This document shows positions 1-13,042 of a stretch of DNA of 21,877 nt, in pieces. A program made the translations under genes and the position numbers. Each line of letters begins with the position of its first letter. Position 1 is the first letter of the stretch. The notes beneath the pieces were generated by a model. It searched no databases, was not told the DNA's origin, and was given only the letters and a program-made list of their open reading frames with translations. Source of the stretch: a virus; the IMG/VR virus record IMGVR_UViG_3300028025_004474, positions 1-21,877 of that record; one strand, given 5' to 3'.

Positions 1-3000
1 GTATAATAATTGTCCAGGTACATAAGCACTTGTATCAATTCCTATCAAAATACCTTCAGAAATAACATATCCAAAACTATCATTAGGGATATTTTGAGTA
101 GTAATACCTAAAGTATTAGCTGAATTAGCATCATTTGTATAAGAAGCTGTTTGAATTAAAGGATTATCTCCTACAGCATCTATAATTCTTACAACAGTGC
201 CCTTATTAATTTGAGCACCAGTCATGTTTTTTACATAAACATCTACTTGAGTTGTTCTAGTAGAAAACTCAGCGTTGGTAGAAGTTGATGCATAAGATGA
301 AGAAATAGCATATGATGAAGTTCCTAATAATGAACCTGTAATTCCACTAGTTACATTTAAAGAACCTGATATTGTTTCGTTTCCTATGAATGTATTTGAA
401 CCAGTAGTTGCAAAAGTACCGTTTAATATATTTTGAGATGCAGTATAATTTAATACTGAAGCACTAAAAGCATTTATTGAAGCTGAAGCTGCATACAATG
501 ATGCAGTTGCGTTGTATAATGATGCTGTAGCGTTTTGTAATTGAGCAATAGTTCCATTATTAGATGCTGTATAAGCATTTATAGATGCACTAAAAGCATA
601 TAAAGATGCTGTTGCAACTCTAATATCAGCTATTGCTTCATTATTAGATGCAGTATAAGCATTTATTGAAGCACTAGCTGCATATAAAGATGCTGTAGCA
701 TTTTGAATGTCAACTATTGTAGCGTTAGTACTTGCAGTATAGTTTAATATAGAAGCACTGAAATTGTATAATGAAGCAGTTGCATTCTGAATATCTAATA
801 TTGTAGCATTAGTACTTGAAGTGTAATTGTTAATTGAAGCACTAAAATTATACAACGATGCTGTTGCATTATAAATTGAAGCAGTAGCATTGTATAAAGA
901 TGCTGTAGCTCTGTTTAATGATTCAGTTGCTAAATTAATAGATGATGAAGCTGCTCTTAATGAAGCTGTCTCATTATATAATTGAGCAATAATATCATTA
1001 TTACTTGCAGTATAAGCATTGATTGATGCACTGAAATTGTATAATGAGGCTGTTGCTCTATTTAATGATTCTGTAGTTAAATATATTGATGCTGTTGCAT
1101 TATAAATTGATGCAGTAGCATTTTGGATTTGAGTTATTGTAGCGTTAGTGCTTGCAGTATAAGAATTCATACTAGCACTAAAATCATATAATGATGCTGT
1201 TGCTAAATAAATAGAAGCAGTAGCATTATAAAGAGAAGCTGTAGCTGAATAGATTGAAGCAGTTGCATTATAAAGAGAAGATGTAGCTAAATAGATTGAA
1301 GCAGTAGCTAAAAGTACTGATGCACTTGTTTGTTCTAAATTTAAAGTACGAGTACTAAATGAAGAACTATCGTTAATATGATTTCTACCATTTACAGTTA
1401 ATGAACCTGTAATTTCTACTGACCCAGTAAATGATTGAATATCAGTTAATTCATCACCAAATACATTTGATCCTGAACTGAATATTACAGATGAAGATAT
1501 AGTTTGTACAATTAACTTTTGAGCAGTAATTGTATCAGTTACAGTTAAGTTACCAACAATGTTTTGGTTACCTTGTAAAGCAATACTTCCACTTACTAAT
1601 ACAGAACCACTAACTGTTTCAGTACCATAGAAAGTATTTGAAGCAGTTGTAGCAAAAGTTCCGTTTAAAATATTTTGAGATGCTGTATAAGATAGTATAG
1701 AAGCACTAAATGCATTTATTGAAGCAGAAGCAGCATACAATGAAGCTGTTGCATTATAAATTGAAGCAGTTGCATTATAAATTGAAGCTGTTGCATTATA
1801 AAGTGATGCAGTAGCATTCTTTAATGATGATGTTGTAGCATACAACTGTGCTATTATATCATTATTGCTTGAAGTATAAGCATTTATACTTGCACTAAAT
1901 TCATATAATGAAGCTGTAGTGTTGTAAATTGATGCTGTAGAATTATACAAAGAAGCAGTAGCTAAATTAATAGAAGCAGTAGCTGCTTTTAATGAAGCCG
2001 TTTCAGCATATAATTGAGCAATAATGTCATTGTTGGATGAAGTATAAGCATTGATTGAAGCACTAAAATTATAAAGTGATTCAGTTGCATTATAAATTGA
2101 AGCAGTAGCATTGTATAAAGATGCTGTTGCTAAATATATTGAAGCAGTTGCATTTCTTAATGAAGCAGTTTCATTGTATAATTGTGCTATTACATCATTA
2201 TTTGATGCAGTATAAGCATATAATGAAGCTGTAGTATTGTAAATTGATGCTGTAGCATTGTAAATAGAAGCAGTTGCTCTATTTAAAGACTCTGTAGCTA
2301 AATAAATTGAAGCCGTTGCTCTATATAAAGAAGCAGTTGCTAATAATACAGAAGCACTTGTTTGTTCTAAGTTAAATGTTCTAATACTAAAGGAAGAACT
2401 ATCGTTAATATAATTTCTACCATTTACTACTAATGAACCTACTATATCAACTGAACTAGATAAATTTACAGATCCTGATTGAGCATAAGAGCCAGTAAAT
2501 ACAATTGTATCTACATTAGCAGTAATAGCTGTACCTGTACTTCCTGAAACATTAACTGAACCAGTTAGGTTTGTAGTGCCAAAAATATTTGTACTACCAC
2601 TTACAGTTAAAGAACCAGATATTACTTGGTTACCTTTAAAAATATTAGAACCAGTAGTTGCATAAGTACCATTTAATACATTTTGAGATGCAGTATAATT
2701 TAAGATACTTGCACTGAAAGCATATAATGAAGCAGTTGCGTTATAAAGTGATGCTGTTGCTCTGTATAAAGATTCTGTAGCATTTTTTAATGATGCTGTT
2801 GTAGCATATAGTTGTGCTACTACATCGTTATTTGATGATGTATAGGCATATAATGAAGCAGTTGCATTATAGATTGAAGCAGTTGCATTGTATAAAGAAG
2901 CTGTAGCTCTATATAATGAAGAAGTAGCTAAAAGTACAGATGCACTAAAATCATTTAATGAACCTGTAGTTACATTAAATATAGAAGCTGAAACATAGAC

Positions 3001-4230
3001 TGTACTGTCTAAAGAGCCATCTCCTTTTACAAATTGAGCTGCTGTAGCTCCTCTAGTTATAAATCTAGAAGCAGTAACTTGAGAATCAATATCTAAAGAA
3101 CCAGTCATTTGGTGATGACCAGTAGGATTTAATTGTAATTTTTTATCTGTATCAGCATTGTCTCCACCAACAAAAAATCCTAAATGTTTACCAGCTTTAG
3201 TATTACCAATATGTAAGTTATTACCTGTAGAATATAAGTAAGCATCATTTCCTTCACCAATAGGACCATTAAAGTTTTCACTATTAATACCCATATTGAT
3301 GTAATTGTTATTTTCATCACCGTTGTTAGCTGTAGCTACAACGTCTGAAGATGCACTTACACCTTGATTAGTATTTTGAATGTTTAGTTGTAAGTAATTA
3401 TCTGAATTACCTTTACCACTAATTACATTGAATGAATCTGTGTTTGGTTGCCAAACATATAATGCTTCAGGAGCTGCTGTTGTAACACCATTTTGGTTAA
3501 TAGCGATACTTGCACTACCAACTTGATACATAGCACTATCAGCTAATACTTGAGATGAGCTAAAGTATGGGATGTGTGTAGCAGTACCTTGTAAATTGTT
3601 TATTGAACCACTAAATGAACCAGTGAATGATACTGCTTCTATTTTACCAGAAGATGATATATTGTTATTAACAGTTAAAAATCCAGAAACAGATGATGTT
3701 GAAGCACCTAATGTTAAGGTACCACCACTTCTATCTGTGATTGTATTAACATTAATAGCATCTACATCTAATTCGTAACCAGCATTAATGCTTTGGTTAC
3801 CAACTAAATTTAATGAACCTGAAATATTAACACTACCTGTGAATGTTTGTGTATCACTTGTAGCATCACCAAATATGTTTGACCCTGAAGAGTAAATTAC
3901 TGATGAAGTAATTGTTTGCACAATTAAACGTCGTGCTGTAATATCGTTTCCTACAACTAATGAACCAGATATATATTGAGATCCATATACATTAACTGGG
4001 CCGTTAACTGTAAAATTGTCTGAGTATGAGGATGTTGAAGAGTAAGATGCACTAAGAATTGAACCACTTACATCGGCTAGTTGTACTATAGTTTCAACAC
4101 CATTATCTTTTTTAAGAAAAACTTTACCTTCGTAGGTATTAATTGCTAATTCTCCTAGGGCTAATGATGATGTGTTAGGCTCTTTGCCTGCAACGGCGCT
4201 GCGTTTTAACTGTAGTTTATTAACTGCCAT
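1..4230 (-). CDS. Giant fibre protein with heptad arrays, 3' end outside window
   Basis: I read the frame triplet by triplet from the ATG at 4230 to the window edge and found no stop, so 1410 residues are visible and the C-terminus is missing. Residues 1-50 (KLQLKRSAVAGK, then LALGELAINTYEGK) resemble the virion-attachment N-termini of many phage fibre proteins, including major-tropism-determinant-like ones. Residues about 50-230 are beta-type repeats rich in SGS and TGS. Residues about 235-365 look like a separate domain. Three arrays of seven-residue repeats (432-522, 628-858, 972-1272) are split by beta-rich connectors. Residues about 1326-1410 (VYVKNMTGAQINKGTVVRI) begin a terminal domain. 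An AAGGA ribosome site lies 9 nt before the ATG. It is probably a long trimeric tail fibre or adhesin acting outside the virion in host contact. A whisker or other long fibre is possible. The receptor is unknown. Confidence 0.85.
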   Translation of the reverse strand, partial: MAVNKLQLKRSAVAGKEPNTSSLALGELAINTYEGKVFLKKDNGVETIVQLADVSGSILSASYSSTSSYSDNFTVNGPVNVYGSQYISGSLVVGNDITARRLIVQTITSSVIYSSGSNIFGDATSDTQTFTGSVNISGSLNLVGNQSINAGYELDVDAINVNTITDRSGGTLTLGASTSSVSGFLTVNNNISSSGKIEAVSFTGSFSGSINNLQGTATHIPYFSSSQVLADSAMYQVGSASIAINQNGVTTAAPEALYVWQPNTDSFNVISGKGNSDNYLQLNIQNTNQGVSASSDVVATANNGDENNNYINMGINSENFNGPIGEGNDAYLYSTGNNLHIGNTKAGKHLGFFVGGDNADTDKKLQLNPTGHHQMTGSLDIDSQVTASRFITRGATAAQFVKGDGSLDSTVYVSASIFNVTTGSLNDFSASVLLATSSLYRATASLYNATASIYNATASLYAYTSSNNDVVAQLYATTASLKNATESLYRATASLYNATASLYAFSASILNYTASQNVLNGTYATTGSNIFKGNQVISGSLTVSGSTNIFGTTNLTGSVNVSGSTGTAITANVDTIVFTGSYAQSGSVNLSSSVDIVGSLVVNGRNYINDSSSFSIRTFNLEQTSASVLLATASLYRATASIYLATESLNRATASIYNATASIYNTTASLYAYTASNNDVIAQLYNETASLRNATASIYLATASLYNATASIYNATESLYNFSASINAYTSSNNDIIAQLYAETASLKAATASINLATASLYNSTASIYNTTASLYEFSASINAYTSSNNDIIAQLYATTSSLKNATASLYNATASIYNATASIYNATASLYAASASINAFSASILSYTASQNILNGTFATTASNTFYGTETVSGSVLVSGSIALQGNQNIVGNLTVTDTITAQKLIVQTISSSVIFSSGSNVFGDELTDIQSFTGSVEITGSLTVNGRNHINDSSSFSTRTLNLEQTSASVLLATASIYLATSSLYNATASIYSATASLYNATASIYLATASLYDFSASMNSYTASTNATITQIQNATASIYNATASIYLTTESLNRATASLYNFSASINAYTASNNDIIAQLYNETASLRAASSSINLATESLNRATASLYNATASIYNATASLYNFSASINNYTSSTNATILDIQNATASLYNFSASILNYTASTNATIVDIQNATASLYAASASINAYTASNNEAIADIRVATASLYAFSASINAYTASNNGTIAQLQNATASLYNATASLYAASASINAFSASVLNYTASQNILNGTFATTGSNTFIGNETISGSLNVTSGITGSLLGTSSYAISSSYASTSTNAEFSTRTTQVDVYVKNMTGAQINKGTVVRIIDAVGDNPLIQTASYTNDANSANTLGITTQNIPNDSFGYVISEGILIGIDTSAYVPGQLLY
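415..1317 (-). repeat. Heptad array 3 of fibre gene (43 repeats)
   Basis: Residues 972-1272 of the fibre divide exactly into 43 seven-residue units such as LYNATAS, IYNATAS, LYNFSAS, INAYTAS, TNATIVD and IQNATAS. Position 1 is mostly Leu or Ile and position 4 mostly Ala, Phe or Tyr, which fits a coiled-coil a/d pattern. Variant units with Asn or Thr at position 1 (NNDIIAQ, TNATILD) occur at intervals but keep the register. At DNA level this is a degenerate 21-bp tandem repeat. Confidence 0.9.
1297..1413 (-). repeat. Connector repeat, copy 2 (fibre residues 940-978)
   Basis: This segment reads I-T-G-S-L-T-V-N-G-R-N, then HINDSSSFSTRTLNLEQT, and leads straight into array 3. It is nearly identical in protein, and clearly similar in DNA, to the segment at 2329-2445 that leads into array 2. 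The offset is 344 residues. Confidence 0.88.
1453..1530 (-). repeat. Internal beta-segment repeat, copy 2 (fibre residues 901-926)
   Basis: The segment reads ITAQKLIVQTISSSVIF and then SSGSNVFGD. It matches residues 97-122 (3865-3942), where the same stretch reads ITARRLIVQTITSSVIY and SSGSNIFGD. The gene has therefore copied a piece of its N-terminal region into the connector before array 3. Confidence 0.85.
1657..2349 (-). repeat. Heptad array 2 of fibre gene (33 repeats)
   Basis: Residues 628-858 divide exactly into 33 seven-residue units. The array opens with VLLATAS and ends with QNILNGT, the same boundary units as array 3. NNDVIAQ or NNDIIAQ units, each followed by an LY(N/A)(E/T)T(A/S)S unit, recur three times inside it, spaced 8 units apart (56 residues). 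Confidence 0.9.
2329..2445 (-). repeat. Connector repeat, copy 1 (fibre residues 596-634)
   Basis: This is the partner of the repeat at 1297-1413. It carries NGRNYINDSSSFSIRTFN and then LEQTSASVLLATAS, which joins the connector to heptad array 2. Confidence 0.88.
2665..2937 (-). repeat. Heptad array 1 of fibre gene (13 repeats)
   Basis: Residues 432-522 divide into 13 seven-residue units, from VLLATSS to QNVLNGT. One Asn-led unit (NNDVVAQ) lies near the middle. This is the shortest array and the closest to the N-terminus. Confidence 0.88.
3865..3942 (-). repeat. Internal beta-segment repeat, copy 1 (fibre residues 97-122)
   Basis: This is the N-terminal partner of the segment at 1453-1530. 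About 20 of 26 residues are identical by eye. Confidence 0.85.
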
Positions 4231-4535: not shown

Positions 4536-4865
4536 TTATGCGAATTTACCTATTGCTATTATTTCATCATCTGTTTCTAAAGTATATCCTAATTGAGATA
4601 TGTTAAATGTAAATATTACATTTCCTCCTCCTGTTGTTAAAGTTACTAATGATGGTGTAACATTTTGTCCATTTATATAATACTCAAAACTAAAATTTGA
4701 TGTAGTTCCAAGTTGTGGTAATACGGGTTGTAATATAGAGGCACCAGTGAATATAGCAGTATCAGGAATAGTTATAGTATCAGCTTGCAATTGCTTTTTT
4801 GTATTAATATATAACAAATCGGCAGGTGATAATTCTTGATATGAGTTGATGTATGCGTTTGCCAT
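4536..4865 (-). CDS. Stand-alone copy of the gp15-like protein's C-terminal domain (109 aa)
   Basis: Residues about 14-109 align along their whole length with the last 97 residues of the 417-aa protein encoded just upstream. Shared marks are LLYINTKKQLQAD against LTYLNTNKPLKAD, FTGASIL against FVGASIL, YINGQ against YVNGQ, and a nearly identical ending LETDDEIIAIGKF. The 3' ends are also very similar in DNA. The start codon overlaps the upstream stop as TAATG, so translation is probably coupled. It looks like a tandem duplication of one beta-rich domain. It may assemble with, or substitute for, the same domain in the larger protein. The domain itself is unknown to me. Confidence 0.85.
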   Translation of the reverse strand: MANAYINSYQELSPADLLYINTKKQLQADTITIPDTAIFTGASILQPVLPQLGTTSNFSFEYYINGQNVTPSLVTLTTGGGNVIFTFNISQLGYTLETDDEIIAIGKFA

Positions 4866-6118
4866 TATGTAAATTTACCTATTGCTATTACTTCATCATC
4901 AGTTTCTAAAGCATATCCTATTGAACCCGTATTAAATTGGAATGTAATACCACCTACATTACTTGTAATTGAAGCAAATGTTGATGGGATATATTGTCCA
5001 TTAACATAGAATACAAAATTATTAACTGTAGTTGCTGGTAATTGTGATCCAGTTGGTGGGTTTAATATTGAAGCTCCAACAAATGCTGCTTGGTTTGGTA
5101 CTGTAACTATATCTGCTTTTAATGGTTTATTAGTATTTAAGTATGTTAAATCACCAATTGCAGCAGCATTAATAACAGTATTGTAAACAATATTACCATC
5201 ACCAATAAATGATGTTGATCCTGCTGTATTATTATCAGCCATCTGTGTTGATGGGGTGATAGTAACAAGATCATTTGTAGTTTCTAAACCGAATACTACT
5301 TGAGCAGGTGAATACAATAAATCTTCGTTTGCTAGTTGTTTATTAACTGTATCTGGTATTAAATAACCATTTAAAGTCATTGTAAATGTAGTTCTAGCTG
5401 CTCTATCATCTCCTTGCTCTACAACATTTGTTACAGCAAAAGTATCAATTCTAGTTCTAAAATGCCATCTTTTAAAATCGCCCCAATATGAATCAGAAGC
5501 ATATTCAATTGCTTCAATTAAGCTATTGTTTTGTTCTACAAAGTTTGTAAATAAAACACATTCATAAGTTACAGTAACATAATCTGGAACTACAGAAACA
5601 TAGTATTGTTTTGATGGTTTTCTATTAGTTAAAATATCAAACTTATCATAAAAGTTTTTAGCATTATATCTAGTTTCAAACACATTGAATAAATGAGCTT
5701 GGTTACCATCTATTTTACTTCCTAATGTTCTATTCTTTTCAACGTTAGTACGTTTGTACATAATAAGTGGTGCCATCAATTTACCATCTTTATCACGGTA
5801 AAAACCATCGTTTTGAACTGATTTCCATTTTTCAGCATCACCAAAAATAACAGGTACTGCTACTCTATTTCCATTTTGTACAACGTTAGGTTTAATAACA
5901 TTTTCAAAATAATATTGTATTGCACCATCTATATCATCCAAACCAATAGAAATATCCTTTATTTTATTACCTTTAAAAGATAAATCTTTACCTCTATTAC
6001 GCGAAAATACAGTACCCTCATCACTATCAGGTTTGCCCTGACTAGCAAGATAAGGTGTAATCTGTGCTTGTTCTACTTGAACAATATTACGCGGTATTGG
6101 TTTTAGATCGCGAGGCAT
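4865..6118 (-). CDS. gp15: gp15-like tail completion / sheath-stabiliser protein with extra C-terminal domain
   Basis: The first roughly 270 residues follow the pattern of T4 gp15, the hexameric cap that ends the tail tube and sheath and joins the head. VAVPVIFGDAEKWKSV corresponds to the gp15 stretch around its VPITYASKEHF. VTYECVLFTNFVEQNNSLIE matches the YELSIFTRYEDDM region, and TTFTMTLNGYLIPDT matches the end of gp15 (LTFEVNGWMYP). T4 gp15 has 272 residues, so about 145 are extra here. Of these, 321-417 form a domain repeated in the next gene. The assignment rests on remembered family patterns and on its place after gp13- and gp14-like genes. Both ends overlap neighbours as TAATG. Confidence 0.6.
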   Translation of the reverse strand: MPRDLKPIPRNIVQVEQAQITPYLASQGKPDSDEGTVFSRNRGKDLSFKGNKIKDISIGLDDIDGAIQYYFENVIKPNVVQNGNRVAVPVIFGDAEKWKSVQNDGFYRDKDGKLMAPLIMYKRTNVEKNRTLGSKIDGNQAHLFNVFETRYNAKNFYDKFDILTNRKPSKQYYVSVVPDYVTVTYECVLFTNFVEQNNSLIEAIEYASDSYWGDFKRWHFRTRIDTFAVTNVVEQGDDRAARTTFTMTLNGYLIPDTVNKQLANEDLLYSPAQVVFGLETTNDLVTITPSTQMADNNTAGSTSFIGDGNIVYNTVINAAAIGDLTYLNTNKPLKADIVTVPNQAAFVGASILNPPTGSQLPATTVNNFVFYVNGQYIPSTFASITSNVGGITFQFNTGSIGYALETDDEVIAIGKFT

Positions 6119-8549: not shown

Positions 8550-9242
8550 TTATGCTACTCTATTAACGGTCAATATAATTGATGGCACAGCAGGACCTAA
8601 TGAAGGTGTTGCATACAATATTCGTGTATTATTATCAGTAGCAGCAAACATTAATTGGTAATAATCATTAGCAGAAGCAGATACAAAAAAGTTCCAAGCA
8701 GCAGCTAAGGCTTCATTAGCTCCACCAAATATTGCAACACCAGTATTAGAAATAGGAACATCAATACCATTTTTTCTTAACCAAATATAGACAGTAGCAT
8801 TAGAACTATTTGTTTTATCAAGTTGAGCTGAGAATTGAATGTTATAAACACCAGGATTAGTTATTTTAATTTTATCTTGATTAGATCCACTAATACTAAC
8901 TCCATAAGCAAAATCAGTAGTATTAAATGATGCTGAATAAGATGCATTAGTTACAGAAAGTAATATTGATGCTGTATGAAAAAATGAGCCATAATAAGAT
9001 GTAACACCAAATGAACTAGTAGCGTTATTAATAGATTGAGTATAACTATTAAATGTTGTACTGCTAGCAAATGAACTAGATTGAGAAGTAAGCACAACAG
9101 ATGATGATATTTGATTAAATACAGCACTGCCTACAGATTGTACTGTTGTTTTTTTAGTTACACTATTATTTACAATAGCAAAGACATCTGTTGGTTCTGG
9201 GGTAATTAGGGATGGTAGTCCCGATATTGGTAAATCTGGCAT
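8550..9242 (-). CDS. Small fibre-like or receptor-binding-type structural protein
   Basis: The N-terminus (residues about 5-36, PISGLPSLITPEPTDVFAI then TKKTTVQSV) is the short attachment segment seen at the start of many phage fibre proteins. The middle is Ser-rich. The last roughly 110 residues, NPGVYNIQFSAQL, YIWLRKNGIDVP, AWNFFVSASANDYYQLMF and PSIILTVNRV, form a pattern common in phage structural proteins, probably a C1q/TNF-like trimeric jelly roll. I infer a small trimeric fibre, decoration or receptor-binding protein of 230 residues. It lies between a small hypothetical gene (4-nt gap) and the gp13-like gene. There is no Shine-Dalgarno. Confidence 0.7.
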   Translation of the reverse strand: MPDLPISGLPSLITPEPTDVFAIVNNSVTKKTTVQSVGSAVFNQISSSVVLTSQSSSFASSTTFNSYTQSINNATSSFGVTSYYGSFFHTASILLSVTNASYSASFNTTDFAYGVSISGSNQDKIKITNPGVYNIQFSAQLDKTNSSNATVYIWLRKNGIDVPISNTGVAIFGGANEALAAAWNFFVSASANDYYQLMFAATDNNTRILYATPSLGPAVPSIILTVNRVA

Positions 9243-11917: not shown

Positions 11918-13042
11918 TTATTTGATAATGTTTGCAAGTTTTTGCATACGAGCAATTACATCATTTGATTCAACGATTGTTGATTTTGGAGCAACACCAG
12001 CAGCTTTAGAAGCAAATCCTAAAGATTCTTTAATAGATGACTTCTTAGAAGCACCTAAAGTAGAACTTTGAATAGATTCAAATAATTCTTTAGCTTGTTT
12101 TGGTGTAGTTGCTTTGTCGAATGAAGCAATTACTTTTAATTTTTGAGATTCAGATAAGTTTTTAGCTTTGAAGATTTTGTTTACATACAATAACTTAGCA
12201 TTTAATAAGTTTTGCTCATGTAATTCAGCACGTAATGCTTCGATTGTTTCAATCGCTTCTTTCATTTCGTCCTTTTCGTCTTCTTTCTTAGCGTCTTTTT
12301 TCTTAGCTTCATACATTGTGTCTTCGTCTGATTTTTCTTCATCTAAAGCATCTAATTCAGCTAATAATTCTTCTAAGTCAACTTCATCTTCTTCTTCAGC
12401 AATTTCCATTTCTGGTTCTTCAGCACCCATTTCCATTCCCATTTCTTCGGCACCCATTTCAGCTGCTTCTTCGCCTGGAGTTTCGTACTCTTCAGCTTCT
12501 AATTCAGATGAGATAATGTCTCTGATGATGTCTTTTAATGCGTCTACTGTTAAATCAGTAATTTTGTCGCCTTCAGCTTCAGCTTCTTCTTCAGCAGGTT
12601 CTTCAGTAGGTTCCATTTCAGACTCTTCGTCTTCAACTTCTTCTTCTTCACCAACTTCTTCTTCTTCTTCAGCTTCTTTCATTTCTTCTTTTTCTTCGTC
12701 TTTAGCTTCTTCTAAAGATTCTTCAGAATCTAATTCAGCTAAAATTTCAGATAAATCGAAATCTTCTTCTAAATCTTCGCCTTCTGACATTTGACCTGCG
12801 TCAATAGCTTTTTTTCTGATCATATCAGAATCATTGCTTCTGTCGTTAGCTGAGATGTAGTCTACTTCTTCAAGTTTCTCGTCATCTTCACTCTCCATTT
12901 CTTGCAATTTTGCAGAAATCATAGATTGTAATTGAGGACCAAGAGCTTCTTCAAGAGCAGCTTTTGCATTTGCCAATGCAGCTTCGCGTACTTGTTTAGC
13001 GTCAGCAATAGCTTCCTTAAACAAATCTTTGTTTGTACTCAT
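11918..13042 (-). CDS. gp22: Prohead core scaffolding protein, gp22 type
   Basis: The 374-residue protein lies between the protease and the capsid gene, exactly as gene 22 does in T4. It has an Ala-rich helical start (EAIADAKQVREAALANAKAA), a very acidic middle (residues about 70-260, long Glu runs) and a basic helical C-terminus. The latter contains LLNAKLLYVNKIFKAKNL and SESQKLKVIASFDKATT, the most conserved part of marine gp22 proteins as I remember them. T4 gp22 is 269 residues, so the acidic middle is expanded. Scaffolds of this type are cut to peptides by gp21, and many L-x-E sites are present. It has the best Shine-Dalgarno in the window (AAGGAG, 9 nt). The last residues (MQKLANIIK) resemble the end of the partial protein at 20961-21877. 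Confidence 0.9.
   Translation of the reverse strand: MSTNKDLFKEAIADAKQVREAALANAKAALEEALGPQLQSMISAKLQEMESEDDEKLEEVDYISANDRSNDSDMIRKKAIDAGQMSEGEDLEEDFDLSEILAELDSEESLEEAKDEEKEEMKEAEEEEEVGEEEEVEDEESEMEPTEEPAEEEAEAEGDKITDLTVDALKDIIRDIISSELEAEEYETPGEEAAEMGAEEMGMEMGAEEPEMEIAEEEDEVDLEELLAELDALDEEKSDEDTMYEAKKKDAKKEDEKDEMKEAIETIEALRAELHEQNLLNAKLLYVNKIFKAKNLSESQKLKVIASFDKATTPKQAKELFESIQSSTLGASKKSSIKESLGFASKAAGVAPKSTIVESNDVIARMQKLANIIK

Follow-up and report, generated by a model that had tools for sequence, protein, structure and literature searches.

Two of the described systems closest to the phage fibre analysed here serve as a starting point. The fibritin (wac) of phage T4 is trimeric and measures 530 Å (53 nm) in all (PMC3004832), while the stalk of UspA1, a trimeric autotransporter adhesin, is a trimeric coiled coil that tolerates both polar core layers and hendecads (PMC6839023). 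We describe a fibre gene from a bacterial virus of an environmental sample whose product carries three long heptad arrays. A T4-like myovirus is likely to use this protein as a long fibre of its tail or baseplate, in which the arrays form parallel, probably homotrimeric coiled coils separated by beta joints, with a length tuned by whole heptads.

The window, meaning the entire 21,877-bp IMG/VR virus record that was analysed, encodes a T4-like structural module, recognised by Pfam matches to Gp23 (PF07068, E = 3.4e-77) and the T4-type terminase (PF03237, E = 4e-11). Its gene order runs terminase, portal, prohead genes, gp23, PhoH, neck gene, gp53-like gene and fibre, where the portal, prohead and PhoH names are taken from position and from the annotation of Flavobacterium phage immuto, and the gp53 match is weak. 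The closest cultured gp23 is that of immuto (61% identical), so a host within the Bacteroidota is likely from sequence comparison. Elsewhere in the window, a putative scaffold upstream of gp23 (11918-13042) is extremely acidic, its middle part holding long stretches rich in Glu, and a second, small fibre-like protein of 230 residues lies between the PhoH and neck genes (8550-9242; weak PHROG tail fiber match, E = 0.0034). By eye, the 109-residue ORF at 4536-4865 and the C-terminal ~90 residues of the gp53-like protein (4865-6118) look paralogous, sharing the motif YLNT.K.L.AD...TDDE.IAIGKF.

The fibre ORF occupies the first 4,230 nucleotides of the window on the minus strand and meets no stop codon before the contig edge, which makes its 1410 residues a minimum length. 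Its modules are as follows, where a polar-a unit is a heptad with Asn or Thr at position a.

1..4230, minus strand: fibre gene, 5' part; 1410 codons, cut by the contig end before any stop
4072..4230, minus strand: N-terminal beta domain, residues 1-53; tblastn matches, AlphaFold2 (AF2) strands at 7-53
3187..3594, minus strand: globular region, residues ~213-348 (HIPYFSSSQ...NYLQLNIQN...VATANNG...MGIN...); conserved, modelled without confidence by AF2
2665..2937, minus strand: array 1, residues 432-522, 13 heptads; polar-a unit at 467, AF2 helix 416-520
2350..2664, minus strand: linker 1, residues 523-627; beta-type by sequence (FxGNQxISGSLTVSGS), without seven-residue periodicity
1657..2349, minus strand: array 2, residues 628-858, 33 heptads; polar-a units at 677, 733 and 789, AF2 helix 611-853
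1318..1656, minus strand: linker 2, residues 859-971; beta-type by sequence
415..1317, minus strand: array 3, residues 972-1272, 43 heptads; polar-a units at 1028, 1077, 1140, 1168, 1196 and 1224, heptad indels relative to locus L089
1..414, minus strand: residues 1273-1410; beta-type beginning of the next segment, running off the contig

Residues 1-53 are 55-63% identical to cyanophage and vibriophage proteins whose annotations read tail fiber, collagen-like, tail or hypothetical, all tblastn matches falling within this segment, which is presumed to be the attachment end of the fibre. An AF2 model of residues 1-545 places a small beta domain at 7-53 (block pLDDT 50-79) and is without confidence for the N-terminal part beyond it. 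The region around residues 213-348 drives the recovery of 107 relatives from IMG/VR. Searches of the window fibre against Pfam, PHROGs and NCBIfam gave weak compositional matches only, among them some to the coiled-coil regions of SMC proteins that scored far short of the cut-off.

The original prediction had divided the three arrays into 13, 33 and 43 heptads, and this holds to the residue: the arrays are exactly 91, 231 and 301 residues long, none contains a phase break, and every one of the 89 units, variants included, stays in register. Identity at a lag of seven residues is 0.45, 0.48 and 0.39 in arrays 1, 2 and 3 (z = 9.8, 16.3 and 13.9), against 0.12-0.13 in shuffled sequences, and is near background at lags that are not multiples of seven. 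Mean column entropy is likewise reduced, at 1.71 bits against 3.14 ± 0.015 after shuffling. Numbering the unit positions from 0, the preferences are Leu/Ile at 0, Tyr/Asn at 1, Asn/Ala at 2, Ala and then Tyr/Phe/Thr at 3, Thr/Ser at 4, Ala at 5 and Ser at 6. The register extends one unit upstream of each array (LNDFSAS or LEQTSAS), and the final unit of each is QNxLNGT, at which the modelled helix terminates. The arrays are parted by 105 and 113 non-heptad residues, leaving arrays 2 and 3 mutually out of phase. The three polar-a units of array 2 are spaced exactly 56 residues apart.

At the DNA level the units are far from uniform, the 89 heptads comprising 53 different peptides and 88 different nucleotide sequences, with a longest exact repeat of 44 nt within the fibre ORF, and synonymous codons mixed at each conserved unit position. 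Synonymous divergence (dS) is 1.00 between adjacent units and 1.02 between random ones, so neighbours are no more similar than random pairs. Together these features indicate an old repeat that is maintained at the protein level. They rule out recent slippage, and on the same grounds an assembly artefact is unlikely. The contigs of the window, L081 and L025 all break off within the fibre gene, perhaps because assembly tends to fail where such genes are repetitive.

A search for the unit consensus, suggested alongside the original prediction, succeeded among uncultured viruses. The sole other IMG/VR contig with two consecutive YNATAS units is L089, while 84,980 prokaryote genomes contained none, an array-type query against cultured phages (low-complexity filter on) returned no match, and our literature search found no paper on this heptad repeat. 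At the DNA level L089 matches array 3 and the flanking sequence with 91% identity. Gaps in the array alignment comprise 14, 28 and 7 residues, all of them whole heptads, and the dN/dS of 0.23 places the array, as judged from these two sequences, under purifying selection. L089 retains a polar-a unit at every aligned site, the single missing one falling in a deleted block.

Two further relatives share the N-terminal region. The L081 fibre, of at least 2235 residues and also cut by the contig end, is 78% identical to the window fibre over residues 1-400 and has heptad arrays broken by 11-residue FDTRI units; L082 is a complete homologue of 2911 residues with eight array-end motifs, 66% identical in its N-terminal region. 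More broadly, a survey of 245 loci yielded 29 distinct ORFs with at least six motif matches in one phase, which suggests that rods of this kind, usually shorter, are spread across many uncultured phages; no array in the survey exceeds the 43 units reached in the window. Unit-to-unit spacings in the relatives, with the window and one duplicate excluded, are multiples of seven in 453 of 502 cases. The remaining 49 are most often +4 (21) and then +3 (9), although the +4 events are not independent, having few origins and including many copies of one FDTRI hendecad in L081 (identical to L169) and some from other repeat types. Insertions of four (stutters) and three (stammers) are the best understood coiled-coil discontinuities (PMC4786415). 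Some loci carry other repeats: L017 (19295-21601) has a different short repeat of about six residues (SYALSA) upstream of the heptads in the same fibre, and the more distant relatives L062 (16890-20096) and L066 (17406-21491) have Gly-containing heptads (ALNATTG) in place of Ala/Ser heptads.

Taken together, the coiled-coil reading of the arrays is well supported in silico. Single-chain AF2 models, one built from an alignment of the window with homologous array modules and the other from residues 1-545, gave one unbroken helix over array 2, with block pLDDT mostly 67-87 and stopping at the linker, and another over array 1, with block pLDDT up to 87. Single-chain prediction may favour helix for Ala-rich repeats, and the models cover arrays 1 and 2; for these arrays they support a helical structure with position 0 (Leu/Ile) at a. 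A PDB fold search with the array 2 model gave no match. The arrays present continuous 3-4 hydrophobic heptads with register-preserving discontinuities, the pattern expected of a coiled coil. The assignment of Leu/Ile to a in the original prediction is thus borne out by the models of arrays 1 and 2 and by the register-preserving variation, whereas the companion assignment of Ala to d describes only about half of the units, most others having Tyr, Phe or Thr. Thr at e is conserved about as strongly as the core.

A standard coiled-coil predictor, which had been proposed as a check, did not recover the arrays. Our re-implementation of COILS, whose matrix and score parameters may deviate from those of the original program and which scored the GCN4 control as positive, gave P below 0.5 almost everywhere, exceeding 0.5 in at most 13% of one array and nowhere in the other two. 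The arrays nevertheless score on average above shuffled sequences, mostly with position 0 at a, and the relatives are missed too, except for a short stretch of L089. Such misses are common, NCOILS missing 63.5% (PMC8203680).

The alternative that survives best is that the arrays are beta-structured, as a beta-solenoid, triple beta-helix or beta-spiral shaft, with seven residues forming a beta repeat as in many phage fibre shafts. Thr, Ile and Tyr favour strands, and the flanking linkers look beta-type. The periodicity of the arrays is itself ambiguous: bulky hydrophobics have power at 7 and 3.5 residues, with the 7/2 harmonic stronger than 7/3 (2.33 residues), while the Kyte-Doolittle and Eisenberg scales both place more hydropathy power at 7/3, probably because of Ala at positions 3 and 5. 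We regard the hydropathy harmonics as real evidence for beta structure, outweighed by the unbroken AF2 helices in two arrays and by indels that come in sevens. Moreover, the 623 array residues contain only 4 Gly and no Pro, and seven residues would make an unusually short solenoid coil, so that a beta-structured shaft appears improbable.

A helical but non-trimeric assembly, whether dimer, tetramer or intramolecular hairpin, has a slimmer chance still. Leu at a with Ala at d also suits narrow, Alacoil-type dimeric packing, but solved phage fibres of such architecture are usually trimers, and the AF2 models lack turns that could form hairpins. Furthermore, L082 couples the same kind of rod to a YadA_head repeat (PF05658, 27.9 bits against a Pfam cut-off of 25), located between heptad arrays at residues ~640-730 and matching the solved heads of autotransporters, which are trimeric. 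A second array protein, L100, shares the SHAEG repeat with L082, and among natural solved structures the array-end profile best matches a fragment of a trimeric autotransporter stalk (E = 0.016), PDB matches being weak and partly compositional. With the polar layers of UspA1, these indirect observations make trimeric arrays likely on grounds of homology and analogy. YadA-head-like SHAEG repeats also occur in 21 further phage ORFs without arrays, another link to trimeric autotransporter heads. Least credible of all is that the arrays are disordered Ala/Ser/Thr-rich spacers conserved only in composition, for although their low charge, richness in Ala, Ser, Thr and Asn and negative COILS result would suit this, the strict hydrophobic periodicity across 623 residues, purifying selection with whole-heptad indels and AF2 pLDDT of mostly 67-87 argue against it.

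Returning to the segmented coiled-coil fibre, we propose that a T4-like myovirus carries a very long fibre on its tail or baseplate, that the fragment supplies the N-terminal 1410 residues of this fibre, and that attachment to the virion is through residues 1-53. Each array would form a parallel alpha-helical coiled coil, most plausibly a homotrimer, with position 0 (Leu/Ile) as a, position 3 (Ala/Tyr/Phe/Thr) as d and Thr/Ser as e. At 0.1485 nm per residue the predicted rods measure 13.5, 34.3 and 44.7 nm. The original estimate of about 90 nm is therefore close in total (~92 nm), although the continuous rod it envisaged gives way to three helices of ~13.5, 34 and 45 nm split by beta-rich linkers. 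These joints would divide the rods and probably help to set chain register. It is plausible that the rods hold C-terminal receptor-binding modules, encoded beyond the contig, away from the baseplate, a long adsorption fibre being the most likely role, and that gain and loss of whole heptads tunes fibre length. The ten Asn/Thr-at-a units (NNDIIAQ, TNATIVD and others) may act as register locks against seven-residue slip of near-identical heptads.

Charged residues are nearly lacking from the arrays (31 of 623, 5%) and are absent from unit positions 0 and 4. The observation that such low charge is unusual for a coiled coil stands as to the count, less so as to its singularity: charge is 0-11% across the 29 surveyed ORFs, making low charge a trait of the whole group of phage fibres and not peculiar to the window protein, and polar stalks are known in trimeric autotransporters (PMC6839023). 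More tentatively, these proteins could constitute a distinct and widespread class of nearly uncharged rod that COILS fails to detect, with Leu/Ile at a, small or aromatic residues at d, Thr/Ser at e, Ala at f and Ser at g. Asn/Thr-at-a units set at intervals, together with the beta joints, would prevent slip, and the rod would evolve heptad by heptad as an adjustable spacer; we find this possible, yet somewhat doubtful.

If our reading is correct, long trimeric coiled coils can be made almost without charged residues, although salt bridges at the surface are usually held to give such assemblies their specificity and stability, and rods of this kind escape a standard predictor. The rods would then offer natural templates for uncharged fibre materials. 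Their near-identical heptads raise a question that can be tested, namely how register slip is avoided in coiled coils that are long and repetitive, and the repeat provides a means to annotate large 'hypothetical' fibre genes of uncultured phages.

Comparison with known systems places the fibre among several partial likenesses. The tail-fibre and collagen-like proteins of Synechococcus phages S-CBS2, S-B43 and RN05-S resemble it at 55-63% identity over residues 1-53, but the similarity ends there and they gave no match to the heptad arrays (low-complexity filter on). Flavobacterium phage immuto is of the same lineage, with a similar gene order, yet no fibre gene in the stretch read carries arrays. 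T4 fibritin is also a segmented coiled-coil fibre of a T4-like phage; unlike it, the window fragment alone has ~92 nm of predicted rods, hardly any charge, and beta-rich joints of 105-113 residues, and its gene, whose 3' end is missing, has no Pfam match to the Fibritin_C foldon. The trimeric autotransporter adhesins (SadA, UspA1, YadA and AtaA) share long, polar stalks built of heptads, in which Ile/Leu/Val occupy a and hendecads interrupt the repeat (PMC6839023), as well as head-and-stalk modules, reflected in the YadA_head repeat of L082 and the weak profile match to a stalk; Pfam found no YadA_head in the 1410-residue window fragment. The window fibre differs in being a phage gene product with an N-terminal fibre domain, and no match to the YadA membrane anchor was found in the complete L082, in L089, in L081 or in the window fragment, which lacks its C-terminus. 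It is also without the Asn-at-d ion layers of these adhesins: Asn occurs at unit position 3 in 0 of 89 units, d being mostly Ala, Tyr, Phe or Thr, and its polar layers lie at a. We therefore view the protein as a segmented coiled-coil fibre in a variant form that is poor in charge, unusual but of a known kind, whose properties are those of a group and not of a unique object.
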